IMG/VR virus record: IMGVR_UViG_3300010399_000083
Coordinates: 1-20,980 of that record
From: a virus
Length of the DNA: 20,980 bases
Strand: one strand, 5' to 3'
Position 1 is the first letter of the stretch; every line of letters starts with the position of its first letter. This document shows positions 744 through 20,076 of this stretch, one piece after another. The notes under the pieces were generated by a model, which ran no database searches, was not told the DNA's origin, and worked only from the letters and a program-made list of their open reading frames with translations. A program made the position numbers and the translations under genes.

Positions 744-2455
744 TGCCTACCGCTACCCCCACCAAGCGCATCCCGGCGAAATGGGCGAAGCTGCTCCGCC
801 TCATCCCTGGCTATGATGCCATTACCACGGCGCAGGATGCGTTTTTTGTCCCCCGGCTCGCTCAGGATGCCCTCGACTTTTTCCCTGCCTGCCTGCACCA
901 TATTGAAGGCGCCCTGTATGGCCAGCCGTTCACGCTCCAGCCCTGGCAGCAAGCGATCATTGCCAATCTATTTGGTTGGCAGGTAATCGACCGCGAAGGG
1001 CGCCAGGTGCGGCGCTACCGCGAAGTCCTGCTGTATTGCCCTAGGAAGCAGGGGAAAACGCCCCTTGTTTCGGGGTTAGGGCTCTACGTCCTCTACTGTG
1101 ATGACGAAAAAGGCCAGCAGAACTATATCGCGGCAGGCGAACGGGAACAGGCCGGGAAGCTCTTTCGCTACTGCAAGGGCATGATGGAGATGGAGCCTGA
1201 GTTGAAGGCGCGCGGCAAAATCTATGGGGGGAATGCCGCAGCAGGGCAGGCCAAAAGCATCGTGATCGAGAGCGAATATAGCTTTCTCCAGGTCATTTCT
1301 GCGGATGCAGAGACGAAACACGGCGGCAATACGCATCTGGCGATTATTGACGAACTCCATGTGCAGCCTGACCGCAACTTGGTCGATGTGCTCAAAACCT
1401 CCATGGCGTCCAATAACCGCAAGCAGCCGCTGATTGTCTATGTGACGACGGCAGACTTTGATCGACCGAGTATCTGTAACGAGACCTACGATTATGCCTG
1501 CAAAGTGCGCGATGGTATCTCGCAGAATCCGCGCTTTTTGCCGGTGATCTATGAGGCCCCCCCGAGGCAGAACGGCGTGGACCTGGACTATACGGACCCG
1601 GCGATCTATCGTGATCCGCGTATCTGGGCGATGGCCAACCCGAATCTAGATGTGAGCGTGTCCCGGGCGTATCTGGAGAGTGAGAGCCAGCGGGCGTATG
1701 AGACGCCCGGCTACTTGCCGACCTTCCTACGCCTCCATCTGAACGTCCGCACGTCCAATCTCTCCGCCTGGCTCGACATGCAACGCTGGGATGCCTCAGC
1801 AGGGGTTGTCGATGCCGACGCGCTCAAGGGGCGGCAGTGTTGGGCGGGGCTTGACCTGGGGTCCACGTCTGACCTCACCTCGTTCTGCCTGCTTTTCCCC
1901 AACGATGACGGCTCGTATGATGTGCTCTGGTGGAATTGGGTCCCCGAAGTCACCGCCCGCAAGCGCGCGCAGAAGGGTGACGTGGCCTATCTCGACTTTA
2001 TCCAGCGTGGCGCACTCTTGACCACGCCGGGGGATGAGACGGACTACGAGACAATCCTGACGCAGATCAACGCCATTGGCCAGGACTACGGGATTGTCGA
2101 TATTGCCGCAGACCGCAATTTTCAAGGCGCGCAACTCTGCCAGGACCTCGTCAAAGCGGGGTTTGACGTGGTCCCGTGGGGCTTTGGCTATATGTCGATG
2201 GCCGCGCCCACGCAGGAGTTTGAGCGCCTGGTGAATCGGGGAGAGTTGCATCATGGCGGCAATCCCGTCGCACGCTGGGCGGCAGGGCATGTGATTGTGA
2301 CGCGAGACGCCGCGAACAATATGAAGCCTGACAAGGCCAGGTCAGCGGACAAAATAGACCCGGTCGTGAGCGCTATTATTGGGTTAGGCCGCTGTATGGT
2401 GCGTCCGAAGGCTGAAACGTCCATTTACGAGACGCGAGGCATGCTCGTCTTATGA
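743..2455 (+). CDS. terL: Phage terminase large subunit (ATPase and nuclease)
   Basis: 570 aa, the usual length. It is the motor that pumps DNA into the prohead and cuts it. The N-terminal ATPase shows a Walker A-like PRKQGKT (residues 100-106), a Walker B LAIIDE (199-204, catalytic Glu 204) and a coupling segment VYVTTA (232-237). The C-terminal RNase H-like nuclease starts near residue 367 with GLDLGSTSDLT (Asp 371 and Asp 377 are candidate metal ligands), continues with IAADRNF (454-460) and ends with ADKIDP (535-540). This architecture fits the TerL_ATP plus TerL_nuclease families seen in HK97-like phages. The ATG overlaps the preceding stop by one base and the stop overlaps the next ATG (ATGA). 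No damage is seen. Confidence 0.95.
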   Translation: MPTATPTKRIPAKWAKLLRLIPGYDAITTAQDAFFVPRLAQDALDFFPACLHHIEGALYGQPFTLQPWQQAIIANLFGWQVIDREGRQVRRYREVLLYCPRKQGKTPLVSGLGLYVLYCDDEKGQQNYIAAGEREQAGKLFRYCKGMMEMEPELKARGKIYGGNAAAGQAKSIVIESEYSFLQVISADAETKHGGNTHLAIIDELHVQPDRNLVDVLKTSMASNNRKQPLIVYVTTADFDRPSICNETYDYACKVRDGISQNPRFLPVIYEAPPRQNGVDLDYTDPAIYRDPRIWAMANPNLDVSVSRAYLESESQRAYETPGYLPTFLRLHLNVRTSNLSAWLDMQRWDASAGVVDADALKGRQCWAGLDLGSTSDLTSFCLLFPNDDGSYDVLWWNWVPEVTARKRAQKGDVAYLDFIQRGALLTTPGDETDYETILTQINAIGQDYGIVDIAADRNFQGAQLCQDLVKAGFDVVPWGFGYMSMAAPTQEFERLVNRGELHHGGNPVARWAAGHVIVTRDAANNMKPDKARSADKIDPVVSAIIGLGRCMVRPKAETSIYETRGMLVL

Positions 2456-2658
2456 CACCGCCCTCCTCCCCCGCCGCCTACGCGCCCCCCGCGCTGGACC
2501 TGCTGGTGCTGCACACGCTGCCGCCGCGCCTACAACGCATGGTCGCGCTGCTGCTGGCGCATGAGGAGGTCATTTGCCGGTATGGCGTGGGGCATGTGGA
2601 GTTGCATTTTCATGGCGAGAGCGTCCAGGTCAAGCTCGCGTGTAATCTCTGTCGCTAG
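2452..2658 (+). CDS. Small hypothetical protein after terL
   Basis: 68 aa, unrecognised. The start overlaps the terL stop in an ATGA, typical of translational coupling, which is the main reason to accept it. The N-terminus is Pro/Ala-rich. It is followed by a Leu-rich helical stretch (about residues 15-40) and a beta-like end with HVELHFHGESVQVKLACNLC, including two cysteines three residues apart at the C-terminus. Immediately downstream the composition changes to the pentamer array, so this is the last + strand gene before the reverse cassette. The function is unknown. It could be a spurious extension of the GC-rich tract, but the translated pattern is not pentamer-like. Confidence 0.55.
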   Translation: MTPPSSPAAYAPPALDLLVLHTLPPRLQRMVALLLAHEEVICRYGVGHVELHFHGESVQVKLACNLCR

Positions 2659-2667
2659 CCTGACCAC

Positions 2668-2834
2668 GTCGCGCCCGCCATGCCCTGCCTCCCCGCGCCT
2701 TCCTTGCCTGTCCCCGCCTCGCCGTGCCTGCGATGCCCTGCCGCGCCAAGCCGGGCCCTGCCGCGCCAAGCCTGCGATGCCCTGCCATTCCCCGCCTGGC
2801 CAAGTGCCGCCGCGCCCTGCCCTGCCCGCCGTGT
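2668..2834. repeat. Degenerate GCCNN pentanucleotide array, left copy
   Basis: Between the small gene ending at 2658 and the 3' end of the minus-strand gene at 2836, the + strand is a run of pentamers of the form GCCNN (for example GCGCC AAGCC GGGCC CTGCC GCGCC AAGCC in another phase), with occasional phase slips. Two exact 17-bp direct repeats are embedded. CCCTGCCGCGCCAAGCC occurs at 2736-2752 and 2756-2772 (20 bp apart, four units). GCCTGCGATGCCCTGCC occurs at 2726-2742 and 2770-2786. Reading frames through it give low-complexity Gly/Ala/Arg or Pro/Cys/Ala peptides that are not real proteins. I do not recognise a described element. Confidence 0.8.
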
Positions 2835-2835
2835 C

Positions 2836-3315
2836 CTACGCGACTTTCTGCCGCCGTGTGGGTGGGCGGTTGGCCGTCTGAGCCGCCTGTTCGCCCTGGG
2901 CGGCAGCGGTCACCGCGCTGACTAGGTCGGTCAGCATGTGATACCGCCGCGTCCACCCGGCCAGTTCGCGCAGCGCGGTCTCCAGGAGTTCTGCCCGTAG
3001 CGCGTCAGACGCTAGCACCGTGCTGACTTCGCGGTAGCCCCCACCAGGGCGGGTACGGTCAGCCATGAGGCTGACATAGACGGGATGCGGGGCCTGCTGC
3101 AACGCCTCCGGGTTGAGAATCGTCACTTTCTGAATCAGCACGCGGGCCTGATAGAGCCGGTACGCATGCCCCGCCACACTATCGTCCCACTCGAAGTGGG
3201 GATGCAGCGGATTCTCCGGATCACTGGCCAGTTCCAGAATTGCTTCGGGTCGTAAGCGGCCTTCGGGGTCGCTGCGGGTCAACGCCTGCAAGAGGTGTAA
3301 GCCTTCGGGCGTCAT
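2836..3315 (-). CDS. Uncharacterised phage protein with FEWDD...YRLYQAR motif
   Basis: 159 aa on the minus strand. The most conserved-looking part is residues 37-61: LHPHFEWDD, followed by AYRLYQARVLI. From memory this resembles an uncharacterised phage family with an 'HFEWDD...A..YR..QAR.LI' signature; I know of no established function. The N-terminal third (LRPEAILELASDPENP) looks like a small helical domain. The middle holds beta segments (PVYVSLMADRTRPGGGYREVSTVL) and the C-terminus is a long helix ending in a basic tail. The ATG at 3315 overlaps the stop of the upstream minus-strand gene (ATGA), and a GGAGG lies about 6 nt before it, so the two are a coupled pair. Its 3' end abuts the left pentamer array. 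Confidence 0.8.
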   Translation of the reverse strand: MTPEGLHLLQALTRSDPEGRLRPEAILELASDPENPLHPHFEWDDSVAGHAYRLYQARVLIQKVTILNPEALQQAPHPVYVSLMADRTRPGGGYREVSTVLASDALRAELLETALRELAGWTRRYHMLTDLVSAVTAAAQGEQAAQTANRPPTRRQKVA

Positions 3316-3998
3316 GCCGCCTCCGCTTCAACGGTAAAGAGGCCATAGCCGAGCCCAGCACTGGCGCGGGAGTCGGGGCGCCCTTCGCCCACGCCGACCT
3401 GGGCGCCTGCCCGCACAAGCAGGTTAAACACATCCGTGGTGCTAAATTGCTCGCGGTCAAACCGGATACGCAGATTGATCGCCCACTCCCGCCACATGGG
3501 CCGGACCCGCAGGTCCGCGACGCCGGTGGCATTGCGTACCGGCAAGATGGTCTTTTCGGGCTCGCCATGCAGGGTCACCAGCGGCGTGCCGTCGATCACA
3601 TCCAGTCCATCGGCTTCGACAAAGATGCTCAGTTTGGCGAGCGTCATTTTGAAGCCAATCGTGCGACAGGCGCTAATGAGCGCATTGCGAAAGGCGGCAG
3701 CGGGAATGCCGTAGCTGTCATCGACCATCCGGTGCATCGCCTGGAGGTAATCATCGTCAAAATCACGGGCTTGCCGTACTTTCTTGGAGCGGGCTTGCTG
3801 GCCTGCCTCCTGGGTTGTTTGCATTTTGCTCATGGCTTTTTGCGAAAAGCGGAGTTGCATATACGGGGCCGTCCCTACGAGGCGGAACTGGACAATCGCC
3901 TCTTGGAGAGGGCGAATGACAATGCTCTCATGAATGGCGGTGGCACCATTCATCATGGGGACTGCTGGGACGATTTTCGATGCTGCTTTTGTCGGCAT
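3312..3998 (-). CDS. Phage protein with RAMP-like glycine-rich C-terminal loop
   Basis: 228 aa on the minus strand. The start at 3998 is chosen because AGGAG and AAGGAA lie just upstream. A longer open frame continues into the pentamer array but translates as low-complexity repeat. Visible features: a beta-rich N-terminus (IVQFRLVGTAPYMQLRFS, about 35-52), a Lys/Arg-rich helical linker (60-80), YGIPAAAFRNALISACR (96-112), a second beta region with RVRPMWREWAINLRIRF (164-180), and the end VGVGEGRPDSRASAGLGYG (201-219). Glycine-rich loops of this GxG...GxG type near a C-terminus occur in RAMP-fold RNA-binding proteins. From memory, uncharacterised phage proteins with a 'VGVGEWRPEK' end share this layout. 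No specific function is established. It is the first gene of the reverse cassette. Confidence 0.8.
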   Translation of the reverse strand: MPTKAASKIVPAVPMMNGATAIHESIVIRPLQEAIVQFRLVGTAPYMQLRFSQKAMSKMQTTQEAGQQARSKKVRQARDFDDDYLQAMHRMVDDSYGIPAAAFRNALISACRTIGFKMTLAKLSIFVEADGLDVIDGTPLVTLHGEPEKTILPVRNATGVADLRVRPMWREWAINLRIRFDREQFSTTDVFNLLVRAGAQVGVGEGRPDSRASAGLGYGLFTVEAEAA

Positions 3999-4045
3999 TT
4001 TCCTTACTCCTGATGAAAAAATAAATAATGGAATACGCTGTGATT

Positions 4046-4419
4046 GCCGCGTCGTGCCTGCCGCGCCATACCGCGCCGTGCCTGGCCCAGCCCTGCCCCG
4101 CCTCGCCTGCCATACCATGCCTCGCCCCGCCCAGCCCTGCCAGGGCGAGCCGCGCCTGCCACGCCGGGGGCAGCCACGCCCAGCCGTCCCTCGCCAGGCC
4201 CCGCCTTGGCACGCCTGCCGCGCCGCACCTCCCGTGCCCGGCCCTGCCTTGCGCAGCCCTGGCGGCGATGTCGTGCGATGCCTAGCCTTGCCTTGGCCGC
4301 GATGCCTAGCCCTGCCATACCACGCCTTGCCAAGCCCAGACTGCCGCGCCTGCCTTGCCGAGCCATGCCCCACCGCGCCTCACCTCGCCAGGCCGCGCCT
4401 TGCCGGGCCTGCCAGGGAG
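4046..4419. repeat. Degenerate GCCNN pentanucleotide array, right copy
   Basis: About 375 bp upstream of the minus-strand gene starting at 3998. It consists of roughly 70 pentamers that mostly follow GCCNN on the + strand (NNGGC on the minus strand), with several phase slips and some degenerate units such as GGCGATGTC near 4261-4275. The minus strand therefore carries GG doublets at about 5-nt spacing over long stretches. Reading frames through it give low-complexity peptides with a five-residue Gly-x-Ala-Arg/Trp-x period, exactly what a 5-nt repeat read in triplets produces, so I do not treat them as genes. Similar AT-rich segments bound it on both sides. I do not recognise a named repeat family. 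Confidence 0.85.
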
Positions 4420-4420
4420 C

Positions 4421-4444
4421 ATGAAAAACTTAATAAATATATAG
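4421..4444. other. AT-rich boundary segment, paired with a similar one at 4013-4029
   Basis: Directly after the right pentamer array the sequence turns abruptly AT-rich: ATGAAAAACTTAATAAATAT and onward. On the opposite side of the array, at 4013-4029, lies ATGAAAAAATAAATAAT, in the same orientation. The two share ATGAAAAA followed by TAATAAATA-like sequence. They may be short direct repeats framing the array, promoter-like AT tracts, or chance. The TATATA at 4438-4443 could be a -10 element, but no good -35 stands 16-18 nt before it. Confidence 0.35.
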
Positions 4445-4564
4445 AGCAGGCTAGCGTATGTCAACCTTTGCTCAGTGTTTGAGTGGAAAGCACGGTCTAC
4501 TACTTTACAACCATGAACAAAAGCTATACACTTACCAAAATACCCTCTTCTGCCTATCCGACAG

Positions 4565-4605
4565 GGCGGCAGGTCTCCATTCCCGGAGGCTTGCCGCCTT
4601 TTTTT
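4565..4605 (+). terminator. Strong intrinsic terminator just upstream of the portal gene
   Basis: Arms at 4565-4578 and 4585-4598 pair over 14 positions (GGCGGCAGGTCTCC with GGAGGCTTGCCGCC, including two G-T wobbles). The loop is six bases (ATTCCC) and a run of seven T follows at 4599-4605. This is a textbook Rho-independent terminator for + strand transcription. The portal ribosome-binding GGAG (4613-4616) and ATG (4626) follow within 21 bp, so any promoter for the portal would have to overlap the terminator, or transcripts must read through or antiterminate. An open frame beginning at 4458 runs through the hairpin in the portal frame, but the terminator argues against that longer N-terminus. 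Confidence 0.85.
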
Positions 4606-4625
4606 ATGCCCTGGAGCCTGTGCCC

Positions 4626-6008
4626 ATGCCTGAGACTGCGCCACCGGGCTATACGCTGACCACAAGCGGCCTGGCCATGCCGACCGACCTGCGGGCTAGC
4701 CATTTTGGCGACGTGACGAACTCACAGACGCCGTCCCCCTGGCTGATTGACTGGTTCATGGGCAGTCGCCAGACCCATGCGGGGATGCGTGTCTCTCCCC
4801 AGGGCAGCATGGCGCTCTCGACGTACTACGCTTGCATCCGCGTGATCGCCGAGGACGCGGGGTCCCTGCCGCTGCAAGTGCTCGAACGCCTGGACCGGGG
4901 ACGGCGCAAAGCCACGGAGCACTGGTTGTGGCCGATTGTGCACGACGAACTCAATGTCGATATGTCGGCCATGATCGGGCGGGAAGTGCTTTACCATCAC
5001 GCACTAGGATGGGGCAATGCCTATGGCCTGATCCTCTACGATCAGAGTATGACGCGGCGGGAAGGGGACGTGGTCGGCATCTATCCCATTCACCCGGCGC
5101 GGGTGCGGCCTTACCGGGAAGACAGTGGGGAGCTGGCGTATCACATTTACACGAGCGGGCTGCCGTCGTCTGCCCCCGACATCCCTGAAGAGGTCCTGGC
5201 GCGAGACATGATCCATATTAAGGGGCCAGGCGCTGATGGGTTGGTCGGCTACAGTATCGCCCAGATTGCCGCAGAAAGCCTAGGGTTGTCGCTGGCAGCC
5301 CAGGAGTACGGCGCGTCGTTTTTTGGCAACTCCGCGATTCCGAGCGGCATTCTCAAACATCCGCAAAAGCTCTCTCCCGAAGGGCAACGCTTCCTCAAGG
5401 AGAGTTGGCAGGCACGGGAAGCACAGAGCGTGGCCGTGCTCGAAGAGGGCATGAGTTGGGAGCAAATCACGATTCCGCCTGAGCAGGCGCAATTCTTAGA
5501 GACGCGGATTTTTCAGGTGCTTGAGGTGTGCAGATGGTTCCGCATGCCTCCCCATATGGTGGGCCATTTAGCCGATGCCAAGTATGCCAATATCGAGCAA
5601 CAGGCGATTGATTATGTGGTCGGCACGCTGACGCCATGGCTAGTACGCGGGGAGCAGGAAATCAACCGGAAACTCCTACGCGGCACGCCGTTTTACGTGA
5701 AACATGACGTGCGTGGGCTTCTACGCGGCGATCAGGCCGCGCGGGCGGAGTACTACAAAGCCTTATTTGCTGTTGGTGCGTATAGTCCAAACGATATTCG
5801 AGAACTTGAAGATATGAACCCGGTTGATGGCTCTGACAACTACTTTCTGCAAATACAGTATTCCACCATTGAAAAGATTGTGAATGGCACCGCTCGGCAG
5901 CCACGCCAGGCGCAGCGGCCCCTGAGTCCCCAGGAGACACCAGCCGCTGCTCTAAATGGCGCGCGCAATGGCTACCATGCGCCAGAGGAGCTCGTCTATG
6001 CACCCTGA
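4626..6008 (+). CDS. Phage portal protein, HK97-like
   Basis: 460 aa, the usual size for HK97-type portals. It forms the dodecameric ring at one capsid vertex through which DNA passes and onto which the terminase docks. The hallmark segment ALSTYYACIRVIAEDAGSLP (residues 63-82) and the downstream ENVYQ-equivalent region (WGNAYGLILYDQ) are clear. So is the wing/crown pattern with GPGADGLVGYSIAQIAAESLGL. The C-terminal part has 'MPPHMVGHLADAKYANIEQQ', typical of Phage_portal proteins. The start at 4626 is preferred: GGAG stands 9 nt upstream, and the longer frame from 4458 would read through an intrinsic terminator and adds an N-terminus unlike the family. The stop overlaps the protease start by 11 nt. 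Confidence 0.93.
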   Translation: MPETAPPGYTLTTSGLAMPTDLRASHFGDVTNSQTPSPWLIDWFMGSRQTHAGMRVSPQGSMALSTYYACIRVIAEDAGSLPLQVLERLDRGRRKATEHWLWPIVHDELNVDMSAMIGREVLYHHALGWGNAYGLILYDQSMTRREGDVVGIYPIHPARVRPYREDSGELAYHIYTSGLPSSAPDIPEEVLARDMIHIKGPGADGLVGYSIAQIAAESLGLSLAAQEYGASFFGNSAIPSGILKHPQKLSPEGQRFLKESWQAREAQSVAVLEEGMSWEQITIPPEQAQFLETRIFQVLEVCRWFRMPPHMVGHLADAKYANIEQQAIDYVVGTLTPWLVRGEQEINRKLLRGTPFYVKHDVRGLLRGDQAARAEYYKALFAVGAYSPNDIRELEDMNPVDGSDNYFLQIQYSTIEKIVNGTARQPRQAQRPLSPQETPAAALNGARNGYHAPEELVYAP

Positions 6009-17097: not shown

Positions 17098-17358
17098 TTA
17101 TCCACGCCATCGAGGCGTGTTGTCTCGAATCTCCCGGCGGATGTCCTGCAATGAGTCGCTTAGTGGGACTTCTTCTATGGATGGAAGGTATGCAGCTCGG
17201 CGGCAAGCAGAAACAATCGCTGAGCCTGTGAGGAGTACTGCGCTGATAAGAAAACAGAGCAACCCCTCAATTTCATGGATGGCGCTCTTGGCGATACCAA
17301 AGAAGCCGCAGCCAGCAATAAAGGCGAGGGATGCAAGCAAAAAGAGGGAGATAGCCAT
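17098..17358 (-). CDS. Small two-helix membrane protein, minus strand
   Basis: 86 aa. Two hydrophobic segments are clear, residues about 2-24 (AISLFLLASLAFIAGCGFFGI) and 31-52 (GLLCFLISAVLLTGSAIVSA), followed by RR and a charged C-terminal tail of about 34 residues. The ATG at 17358 has AAGGAGA about 8 nt upstream. It follows the lipoprotein gene by 39 nt on the same strand, so the two form a short operon pointing against the tail genes. The function is unknown. A holin-like role is possible from topology, but the tail-gene location and lipoprotein partner suggest instead a membrane protein altering the host envelope. FIAGC looks like a lipobox, but processing there would be unusual given the second helix. 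Confidence 0.72.
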   Translation of the reverse strand: MAISLFLLASLAFIAGCGFFGIAKSAIHEIEGLLCFLISAVLLTGSAIVSACRRAAYLPSIEEVPLSDSLQDIRREIRDNTPRWRG

Positions 17359-17397
17359 CGAGCTTTTCTCCTTTCATCAATGTGGGTTGGCAAAGGT

Positions 17398-17751
17398 TTA
17401 TCGCCATTGGACTGCATTGCCCTCGCATTTTTGCGCGACCCAGCAGTTATTGACAAAAGGAGCTCCGTCACAGGTCACATCGACGACGGCGTCTCCATCG
17501 AGTGCCGCAGCCTTTTTTACGAGTGTGGCAATGGCTTTGCCTTCTTGTCCATTGAAGCGTGTCCCGCCTGCCCCTGAACAGTCGGCAGCGTCGAGGGGGG
17601 CCAGAATACGGAACGCCCGTGTTGGTGTGTCTCCATGGCGATAGACCGCGATCTGGGCAGCCTTTTCGCGCTGAGCATCTGTGAGCGTAGGCGGGCCAGC
17701 GACACAGCCGGCGAGCAAGCCGCAGGCGCAGAGGGCTATGAAAAAGCGCAT
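17398..17751 (-). CDS. RcsF-like outer-membrane lipoprotein
   Basis: 117 aa. The N-terminus is a lipoprotein signal with lipobox LLAGC (lipidated Cys 16). The mature part carries four further cysteines, C58, C94, C103 and C109. Their spacing (36, 9, 6) is nearly that of E. coli RcsF as I recall it (C74, C109, C118, C124: 35, 9, 6), which form two disulfides. The segment AVVDVTCDGAPFVNNCWVAQKC is the RcsF-type core. RcsF is the envelope-stress sensor upstream of the Rcs phosphorelay. The ATG at 17751 has AGGAGA 7 nt upstream, and its promoter must lie in or beyond the 61-bp gap to the tail gene at 17813. A phage copy could act as a decoy sensor or in superinfection exclusion; this is inference. 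Confidence 0.78.
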   Translation of the reverse strand: MRFFIALCACGLLAGCVAGPPTLTDAQREKAAQIAVYRHGDTPTRAFRILAPLDAADCSGAGGTRFNGQEGKAIATLVKKAAALDGDAVVDVTCDGAPFVNNCWVAQKCEGNAVQWR

Positions 17752-17812
17752 AGGGATTCTCCTGGTCCAAAAGAGGTCGTGTAGTCTGAGCATAGCATAA
17801 AGTGAGCAGCCA

Positions 17813-19243
17813 GTGTTTCTCGAATCCCTACTCTTCCCTGATACCGTCGCCCTGGGCATGACCGGCGGCCCGCGCTTCGCGACGACGGTGGCACCCTCGC
17901 CGAGCGGCGCTGAAGCGCTGATGGACCACTGGCCCCTGGAGTTGGGCGCGTGGGATTTGGTGCAGGCCAATCGCACCGACGCGGAGACGGCAGCCCTGCT
18001 GGCGCTCTTTCGCCTCGCCTGTGGCCGCGCGCACGGCTTCCGCTTTCATGATCCCACGGATGATACCGGCACGCTGGAACTGCTCGGCACGGGCGACGGC
18101 ACGACGCAGACGTATCAGCTCGTCAAACACTACGACGATGGCGCGTTTACGTACTCCCGGCCTATCTTAAAGCCCATCGCAGGCAGCGTGCTCGTGTATC
18201 TGGACGGTGTGTTGACCACAACCGTGCTGGTGTCCAGTAGCACGGGCGTCGTGACGCTGGACCCTGCGCCGGATGCCGACGTACTGATTACCGCTAGCTT
18301 CCGCTACCACGTCCCGGTGCGCTTCGACATGGACGCCTGCGCGATTACGTGCGTGGAACCGGGCATCTCGACGTGGAGCGGCATGCGCCTCGTGGAACTG
18401 CCGCGTGGGCCAGTGGACGGTAGCACGACCGGGGAAGCGAGCGCCGATGCCGCAGGCGGCGAAGCGGTCAACGAGGGGACGGGCTTTTTAAGTGCCGCGC
18501 TGGCGTCGATTGGAGATTCCGCAGGGACGGGCTTTATGACGACGCATTATGCCACGGTCGCGCTGCACTGGATTATCCCCACGTTTGAGGGCGATGATCC
18601 GGTGGTGTCGGTGCATCTGCGGCGCAGCTTCGTCCCCGACTTGCCCAGCACGGGGGCGTACTACGAGATCGGCCCGCTCTTACCGGAAGACTCCCCATAC
18701 ACCGAAAACACGATCTTTGGCGATTATCAGGGCGGGGCCAGTGGCGTGACCCTGGTGCCCGTAGGCACCCCGGCGCTGGATGCGAATGTGTACGAAGAGA
18801 CGCTCCGTGGGGCAGGCTACAACTATCAGGCGATTTTCACAACGCTCTCCGCCAAGATCGATGCCTCGCCCATTCTGCTGGTGAAGCACCTCACGTACCC
18901 GCCGACACCGCCTACCGGCGTGACGGCGACATTTCACGACGCGGGCGAGTTTTTCAGTTACGTCGATTTCACGTATCACCGGCCTGCGAGTTTGCACGGG
19001 AACACCGTCTATTTTTACTTCGCCGAAACGAATACGAATGGCGCGGGCTGGGTGCCCTATGGCGGGGGGCTCACGGGGGAATTTCTGGGCGATACGATGG
19101 ACGATATATCGTTCACGGGGAACTCGGGCTTTGCCGACCGCTCAAGCGAGGGCACGTTTGCCATACGGTTCAAGGCCCAGAATGACTGGGGCACGTCCGA
19201 CTGGTCCGAGGTCGCGTCGTGTATCATTCCGGCATATCCATGA
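17813..19243 (+). CDS. DUF2460 tail-tip protein with long C-terminal extension
   Basis: 476 aa starting at a GTG. Residues 1-200 are the DUF2460 domain found in GTA-like tail tips: FLESLLFPDTVALGMTGGPRF, then CGRAHGFRFHDP (70-81), LLGTGDGTTQTYQLVKHY (90-107) and VEPGISTWSGMRLVELP (181-197). Family members usually end here (about 200-215 aa). This one continues with a variable region (200-365) and a fibronectin-III-like C-terminus (365-476, with PPTGVTATFHDAGEFF and FAIRFKAQNDWGTSDWSEV). FN3 modules on tail tips commonly mediate surface contact. The GTG is chosen because FLESLLFPD is the family N-terminus; the ribosome-binding site is weak. It is divergent to the RcsF-like gene. Confidence 0.85.
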   Translation: MFLESLLFPDTVALGMTGGPRFATTVAPSPSGAEALMDHWPLELGAWDLVQANRTDAETAALLALFRLACGRAHGFRFHDPTDDTGTLELLGTGDGTTQTYQLVKHYDDGAFTYSRPILKPIAGSVLVYLDGVLTTTVLVSSSTGVVTLDPAPDADVLITASFRYHVPVRFDMDACAITCVEPGISTWSGMRLVELPRGPVDGSTTGEASADAAGGEAVNEGTGFLSAALASIGDSAGTGFMTTHYATVALHWIIPTFEGDDPVVSVHLRRSFVPDLPSTGAYYEIGPLLPEDSPYTENTIFGDYQGGASGVTLVPVGTPALDANVYEETLRGAGYNYQAIFTTLSAKIDASPILLVKHLTYPPTPPTGVTATFHDAGEFFSYVDFTYHRPASLHGNTVYFYFAETNTNGAGWVPYGGGLTGEFLGDTMDDISFTGNSGFADRSSEGTFAIRFKAQNDWGTSDWSEVASCIIPAYP

Positions 19244-19464: not shown

Positions 19465-20076
19465 ATGGCCTTCAGAGAGGTCCGCTTTCCCGATACGCTG
19501 GCGCTGGGCTCGTCTGGCGGTCCAATGTACCGCACGCATGTGGTAGTCAGTAAGGGCGGGGCCGAACAAAGAAATCAGTGCTGGAGCCAGCCGCTTGCCG
19601 TGTATGAGGTGGGCCTCATCAATCGCGAGTTGGCTGCCACGACGCTGCTGCGCCAGTTCTTTCGCTCGGTCGCGCAGGGGCAGCGTCATGGCTTCCGGTT
19701 CTACGACCGCGTGCCAGGCGAGCATACAGGGACGGCGGAAGTCCTAGGGACCGGCGACGGCGTAGAGGACACGTACCCGCTCATCAAACACTACACGATA
19801 GGCATCTACGACAGCGTGCGGGTCATCACGAAGCCCGTGGCGGGGAGTGTCACGGTCATGTTGAACGGCACGCCTACCGGGGCGTTCACGGTGGATACCA
19901 CAACGGGGCTGGTGACGATGACGAGCCCGCCGGGGAGTGGCGTGGTGGTGAGTGCATCGTTCCTGTTCGACGTGCCAGTGCGTTTCGTCACGGACGTGTT
20001 AGATATTCAGGCCGTAGAGCCAGGTATTTTTAGCTGGCCTTCGATCAAGCTGATGGAAACCAGGGCGATTGCATGA
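19465..20076 (+). CDS. DUF2460 tail-tip protein, second copy
   Basis: 203 aa, the usual family length. It parallels the first DUF2460 gene throughout: MAFREVRFPDTLALGSSGGP, GQRHGFRFYDR, VLGTGDGVEDTYPLIKHY, KPVAGSVTVMLNGTPTGAF and VEPGIFSWPSIKLMET. The two therefore arose by duplication within or before this phage lineage, with the first copy gaining an extension. In gene transfer agents and related phages, DUF2460 proteins form part of the distal tail hub next to the DUF2163 and peptidase components. The stop overlaps the following start in an ATGA. Confidence 0.88.
   Translation: MAFREVRFPDTLALGSSGGPMYRTHVVVSKGGAEQRNQCWSQPLAVYEVGLINRELAATTLLRQFFRSVAQGQRHGFRFYDRVPGEHTGTAEVLGTGDGVEDTYPLIKHYTIGIYDSVRVITKPVAGSVTVMLNGTPTGAFTVDTTTGLVTMTSPPGSGVVVSASFLFDVPVRFVTDVLDIQAVEPGIFSWPSIKLMETRAIA

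Follow-up and report, generated by a model that had tools for sequence, protein, structure and literature searches.

The 20,980-nt stretch of viral DNA analysed here (IMG/VR record IMGVR_UViG_3300010399_000083, hereafter the window) carries between its terL and portal genes a cassette of two minus-strand genes and two pentanucleotide arrays, which we interpret, with a probability of about 0.9, as a VIPR (Viral Interference Programmable Repeat) system forming an extra phage module at this site. VIPR, which was reported in 2026 and proposed as a CRISPR ancestor with a non-contiguous guide code, is RNA-guided, phage-borne and related to CRISPR (bioRxiv 2026.04.26.720920, PMC13142463). The published systems reside mostly in phages and prophages and comprise the early-branching RAMP Vipr together with a vap gene and vrRNAs of 9-16 pentamers, in which GGY alternates with a dinucleotide (NN) that pairs with double-stranded DNA, whereby one base is skipped, usually the wobble position of a codon (PMC13142463). 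This skip rule and the repression directed by NN identity were shown experimentally for the VIPR of Escherichia phage SUSP1; programmed vrRNAs repress GFP as well as genes of phage lambda, and the targets include satellites, prophages and other VIPR systems (PMC13142463).

The original prediction, made from the sequence alone, had described two coupled minus-strand genes within a plus-strand module. Indeed, TerL and portal are, like the rest of the late genes, encoded on the plus strand, and the two open reading frames (ORFs) of the cassette share an ATGA overlap, each with a match to a phage protein family. The product of the upstream gene matches phrog_4652 (E 1e-18), and the PDB entry 36pp, "SUSP1 Vipr protein", was found with a profile of 39 relatives (E 3.2e-5) as well as with the window protein as a single sequence (E 3.9e-5). 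The Vipr of the E. coli phage ESCO50, a distant homologue that is a near-identical relative of 36pp (E 2e-126), aligned to this profile with an hhalign probability of 94.6. In the AlphaFold2 model of the window protein (pLDDT 80.5) the fold is that of Csm3/Cas7-type RAMPs, which make up the Foldseek list throughout (best E 7e-6; VIA Z 10.9, root mean square deviation 3.5 over 150 residues), and the C-terminus carries the Gly-rich motif GxGEGRPDSxxSAGLGxG. As judged by profile and model, the gene encodes a RAMP-fold protein that is related to the known Vipr.

The product of the downstream gene matches phrog_15946 (E 6e-25), and its model (pLDDT 91.1) consists of a winged-helix-like domain followed by a long C-terminal helix. 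Since the winged-helix matches in the PDB are weak (Z about 5), we refer to Vap as a predicted DNA-binding accessory protein. A match of the vap profile (A2) to TALE repeats in the PDB was discounted, because it covers a short helical stretch and no stretch passes alone. Relatedness between Vap of the window and the gene adjoining vipr in ESCO50, which belongs to the SUSP1 clade, was not detected.

The GCCNN arrays had been placed on both sides of the genes and nowhere else in the window, which the counts bear out. On the plus strand only, GCC recurs at a spacing of 5 in 16 pairs within 2660-2836 and in 34 pairs within 4040-4425, with 0-2 and 0-6 pairs, respectively, at spacings of 3, 4, 6, 7 and 8, and the 16.5 kb from 4460 on contain 10 pairs at spacing 5, which is the same level as at other spacings. 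All nine occurrences of (GCCNN)4GCC lie within the two arrays; none was found on the minus strand of the window, and none with the reversed pattern as a control. On the coding strand of vipr and vap, the arrays read (GGYNN)n and are divided into guide-sized units by a 4-nt GGCA or CGCA. Array 2 contains the clean guides CC-AA-GC-CT-GA-GA-GC-GG-AT-TC-AA, GT-AA-GG-CT-GA-AC-TG-GT-TG-CC-GT, GC-TC-CT-AG-TG-GG-GA-AT-AT and GA-GG-AG-TG-CA-AC-GC-AT-GC, and the cleanest guides of array 1 are AG-AG-GC-GG-TT-CA-GG-AT-AG-AT and TT-GC-AG-CC-TT-GC-AG-AT.

The same organisation is seen across the clade, in which parsed arrays consist of units of mostly 8-10 pentamers, each closed by a 4-nt element that is mostly GGCA (492) or CGCA (98). 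The first N of the pentamer ahead of this element is A in 72% of cases, so that this pentamer looks like a part of the tag. In some AT-richer members (ESCO50, L193; L numbers denote related loci) the scaffold is GGT instead of GGC. The arrays showed no more intrinsic structure than shuffled sequences, and an Rfam scan of the window gave no match and thus no hammerhead. Some relatives carry a tail at the end of the array, with a stem (CCGC/GCGG or CCGG/CCGG) whose loop pairs with downstream sequence. For 24 distinct tails the mean pairing of each loop with its own downstream sequence, 5.6 bp, exceeded all 500 re-pairings (mean 4.4, maximum 5.0), in agreement with the pseudoknot reported for the SUSP1 clade (PMC13142463), although the tails include many close relatives and thus represent fewer independent changes than 24. 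This covarying element, AAACCGC-loop-GCGGGGTA(T/A)AA, located 3' of the arrays in L029, L032-L035, L047-L064, L086, L178, L179 and others, is a candidate pseudoknot tail of the vrRNAs of the clade.

A code that skips the wobble base predicts that the NN resemble codon positions 1-2 in composition. This was assessed for 3,221 NN from 86 loci, excluding unit ends, and, as for the target search below, was computed here independently of the preprint. The divergence was lowest for sense codon positions 1-2 (0.05, compared to 0.126 to 0.261 for the other phases), which won in 500 of 500 bootstraps over loci, and a six-phase mixture assigned 77% to sense and 23% to antisense codon positions 1-2, with 0% for the four other phases. 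The result provides independent support for the published one-base-skip (wobble) code.

Comparing the clade guides with the related loci, we found that a guide of L021 matches an ORF of the VIPR-bearing phages L014, L015 and L016 (L014:11201) at 20 of 20 positions with a 1-nt skip, in frame and with the skip at the wobble position (E 7.5e-6 per guide); judged by eye from its sequence, this ORF is replication-helicase-like. At skips other than 1 nt, nothing below E 0.005 was obtained. A guide of L174 matches the vipr gene of L031 (L031:6490) in frame at 19 of 20 positions, and a guide of L176 matches L052 at 17 of 18. Because one of eight replicates with shuffled order reached E 1e-4, only the L021 match is called strong; after correction for some 250-470 guides the other two are within the reach of chance, and the L174 match is at most suggestive. 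The guides of a Bradyrhizobium locus (L177) gave nothing convincing among 266 congeners, one matching only at 2 mismatches of 18 and the other yielding a single match with one mismatch. With the 1-nt skip, the replication-helicase-like gene of L014 and the rival vipr gene of L031 are predicted as natural targets, and the 1-nt-skip reading of the NN is supported for the clade by the codon-phase mixture together with the L021 match. We further propose, rather tentatively and at somewhat below even odds, that the clade has an array grammar of its own, in which contiguous guides of about 8-10 pentamers are split only by the 4-nt GGCA/CGCA tag, ahead of which stands a pentamer rich in A, and a single long RNA would thus hold several overlapping or tag-sharing guides, aimed mainly along the sense strand of the replication and vipr genes of rival phages.

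Several observations speak against a VIPR system that operates in the window as described. The likeness of its Vipr to SUSP1 Vipr is limited to the C-terminal part, several units in both arrays are irregular (GCCAA, CACTT), the covarying tail family of relatives is absent, which leaves room for a tail of another type, and the 45 NN of the window alone do not single out a codon phase. Its own guides gave no target: two 22-base patterns yielded 0 matches, and two 18-base cores yielded 1 and 0, the single match being rejected as chance because it runs antisense to a tail gene, does not keep the codon phase and fails at the two units that follow. The irregular units could reflect partial decay, and a decayed VIPR locus, in which the genes are intact and the partly degenerate arrays no longer supply functional guides, would account for these units, for the lack of a target and for the missing tail. 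We nevertheless regard such a decayed locus as very improbable, since both ORFs are intact and retain the conserved residues of the Vipr alignment (A1), the promoter-like site deviates little from the consensus, no fewer than six clean guide units are left, and relatives show irregular units too and mostly lack that tail family.

Relatives of vipr were found on 253 viral contig stretches, in phages of Mycobacterium and Gordonia, in a cyanophage and, at a greater distance, in ESCO50, as well as on 21 contigs of bacterial genomes. In 96 of 106 related loci vipr is accompanied by vap, always on the same strand, and 98 of the 106 possess a period-5 GGYNN array; in at least two of the remaining 8, the gene ends at or near the contig end. 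All 99 long arrays of the first set lie on the coding strand of vipr and vap. The array is located only between the two genes in 47 loci, only downstream in 23 and in other combinations elsewhere, from which it follows that it belongs to the genes and not to an insertion site. In Saal and Cy-LDV1 the module has repressor and excisionase genes nearby, in ODay it is flanked by tail genes, and in L086 it again lies between terL and portal, but in the opposite orientation. In the latter, further ORFs lie between terL and the VIPR genes (L086:371-2423), one of which, by eye, is perhaps a DNA methyltransferase; the site may collect cargo genes.

The premise of the original prediction that terminase and portal genes are normally adjacent was confirmed by portal relatives with both genes matched, 72 of 76 of which have a gap of 200-400 bp between the matched ends. 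In the proposed comparison of this junction, neither vipr or vap genes nor GGYNN arrays were found at any of 80 portal-relative loci, the relatives fetched being 43% identical at best. The discrete insertable unit that had been postulated thus stands in part: the cassette is an extra, movable, moron-like module, which is absent from these relatives and located at other sites elsewhere, but its ends are not formed by the arrays. The latter, which have a strict orientation and probably encode guide RNAs, lie between, downstream or upstream of the genes and form a functional whole with the gene pair, as in published VIPR systems (PMC13142463), and repeats at both ends are not the rule in relatives. 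A mobile two-gene moron with genes of unrelated function, for which the arrays serve as ends or recombination sites, would agree with this distribution and with the arrays on both sides of the genes in the window. It is highly unlikely given the single orientation of the arrays relative to the genes and their most frequent position between or only downstream of them, the upstream protein being a RAMP related to Vipr, and the codon-phase information carried by the NN.

We assign a similarly slight chance to an array that serves as an RNA scaffold or sponge for the RAMP protein, with the NN as filler and without a sequence-specific target. The regular 5-nt repeat, the structure no greater than in shuffles and the window guides without a found target would suit it, but codon positions 1-2 are the only phase that the NN fit, the guide of L021 matches a phage gene perfectly in frame, and NN identity directs repression in SUSP1 VIPR (PMC13142463). 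A TRAP-like ring protein on repeated RNA and a DNA-level element (origin or packaging) were dropped after the RAMP fold, the 36pp match and the codon-phase result.

Under the favoured VIPR interpretation, the minus-strand promoter would likely drive one transcript comprising array 2, vipr, vap and array 1, and the array RNA would, as shown for other VIPRs, give rise to guide RNAs from (GGYNN)n units of about 8-11 pentamers closed by GGCA or CGCA. Vipr, with its modelled Cas7/Csm3 fold, would load on the GGY scaffold, and the NN would recognise double-stranded DNA, passing over one base for each pair, usually at the wobble position of a codon. The bound DNA would be repressed, with the winged-helix Vap as a putative DNA-binding helper. 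By analogy to the SUSP1 work, from which expression, processing and repression at the window locus are inferred, the locus probably silences genes of competing phages, which are its likely targets.

The features of the locus are listed in Table 1.

Table 1 Features of the proposed VIPR locus between terL and portal.
Feature	Position	Strand	Remarks
Promoter-like site TTGACA-17-TATATT	4436..4464	-	11/12 consensus bases; directly before array 2
Array 2, GGYNN pentamers (putative vrRNA array)	4044..4413	-	upstream of vipr; about 6-8 units, each closed by a GGCA-type 4-mer
vipr, 228 aa, predicted RAMP (Cas7/Csm3-fold)	3312..3998	-	phrog_4652, 36pp SUSP1 Vipr, fold, alignment A1
vap, 159 aa	2836..3315	-	start overlaps vipr stop (ATGA); phrog_15946; predicted winged helix and 45-aa C-terminal helix
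Array 1, GGYNN pentamers (putative vrRNA array)	2657..2830	-	downstream of vap

Promoter-like sites number 3 in 2400-4800, compared to 0.5 expected from shuffles. The terL/orf68 end is at 2658, and the stretch from terL to the cassette also contains a plus-strand ORF of 68 aa (2452-2658). The portal gene probably starts at 4626 and not at the listed position 4458, which overlaps with the promoter-like site on the minus strand, and a strong hairpin resembling an intrinsic terminator (16 pairs, T run; 4563-4600, plus strand) is located just upstream of 4626. Elsewhere in the window, a small plus-strand ORF between terS and terL (558-743) shows a near-threshold DUF1737 match (E 1.7e-4, 21.8 bits, cut-off 24). 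A second reversed pair of small ORFs (17098-17976, minus strand) lies between the tape measure gene and a DUF2460 gene; the ORF at 17398-17730 encodes a possible lipoprotein (lipobox-like LLAGC; weak RcsF match below threshold, E 0.013) and that at 17098-17358 a small membrane-like protein. Two adjacent plus-strand DUF2460 tail genes (17813-19243 and 19465-20076; E 2e-45 and 6e-54), the first of which is much longer, suggest a duplication.

With this locus, VIPR gains a member that comes from an uncultivated phage and whose operon has putative guide arrays to either side; the clade of the locus extends over phages and prophages of many phyla. Two large phage protein families, phrog_4652 and phrog_15946, which contain the window proteins and are listed as of unknown function, are here identified as Vipr and Vap; PADLOC and NCBIfam gave no match. 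The composition test, which supports the wobble-skip code in the clade without needing targets, can be used on any such array. Compared to class 1 CRISPR RAMPs (Csm3, Cas7, Cas7-11), the window Vipr has the same fold over about 150 residues and a C-terminal Gly-rich loop, but the sequence identity is 7-14%, and a 5-nt repeat scaffold takes the place of repeats and spacers. Membership in class 1 CRISPR-Cas was rejected, as the cassette consists of only two genes and pentamer repeats, without CRISPR-type repeats, and neither a CRISPR array nor another cas gene was found in the window. From the VIPR of SUSP1 (PDB 36pp) the locus differs in its only distantly similar Vipr and in its guides, which are arranged head to tail with the 4-nt GGCA/CGCA between them and perhaps correspond to the "staggered arrays with overlapping vrRNAs" mentioned along with seven VIPR types (PMC13142463). 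It shares with SUSP1 VIPR the RAMP-fold Vipr, the one adjacent vap and the phage-borne location, as well as arrays of GGY/NN pentamers, which occupy long intergenic regions on the strand of the genes and whose guide units agree with the 1-nt-skip wobble code.
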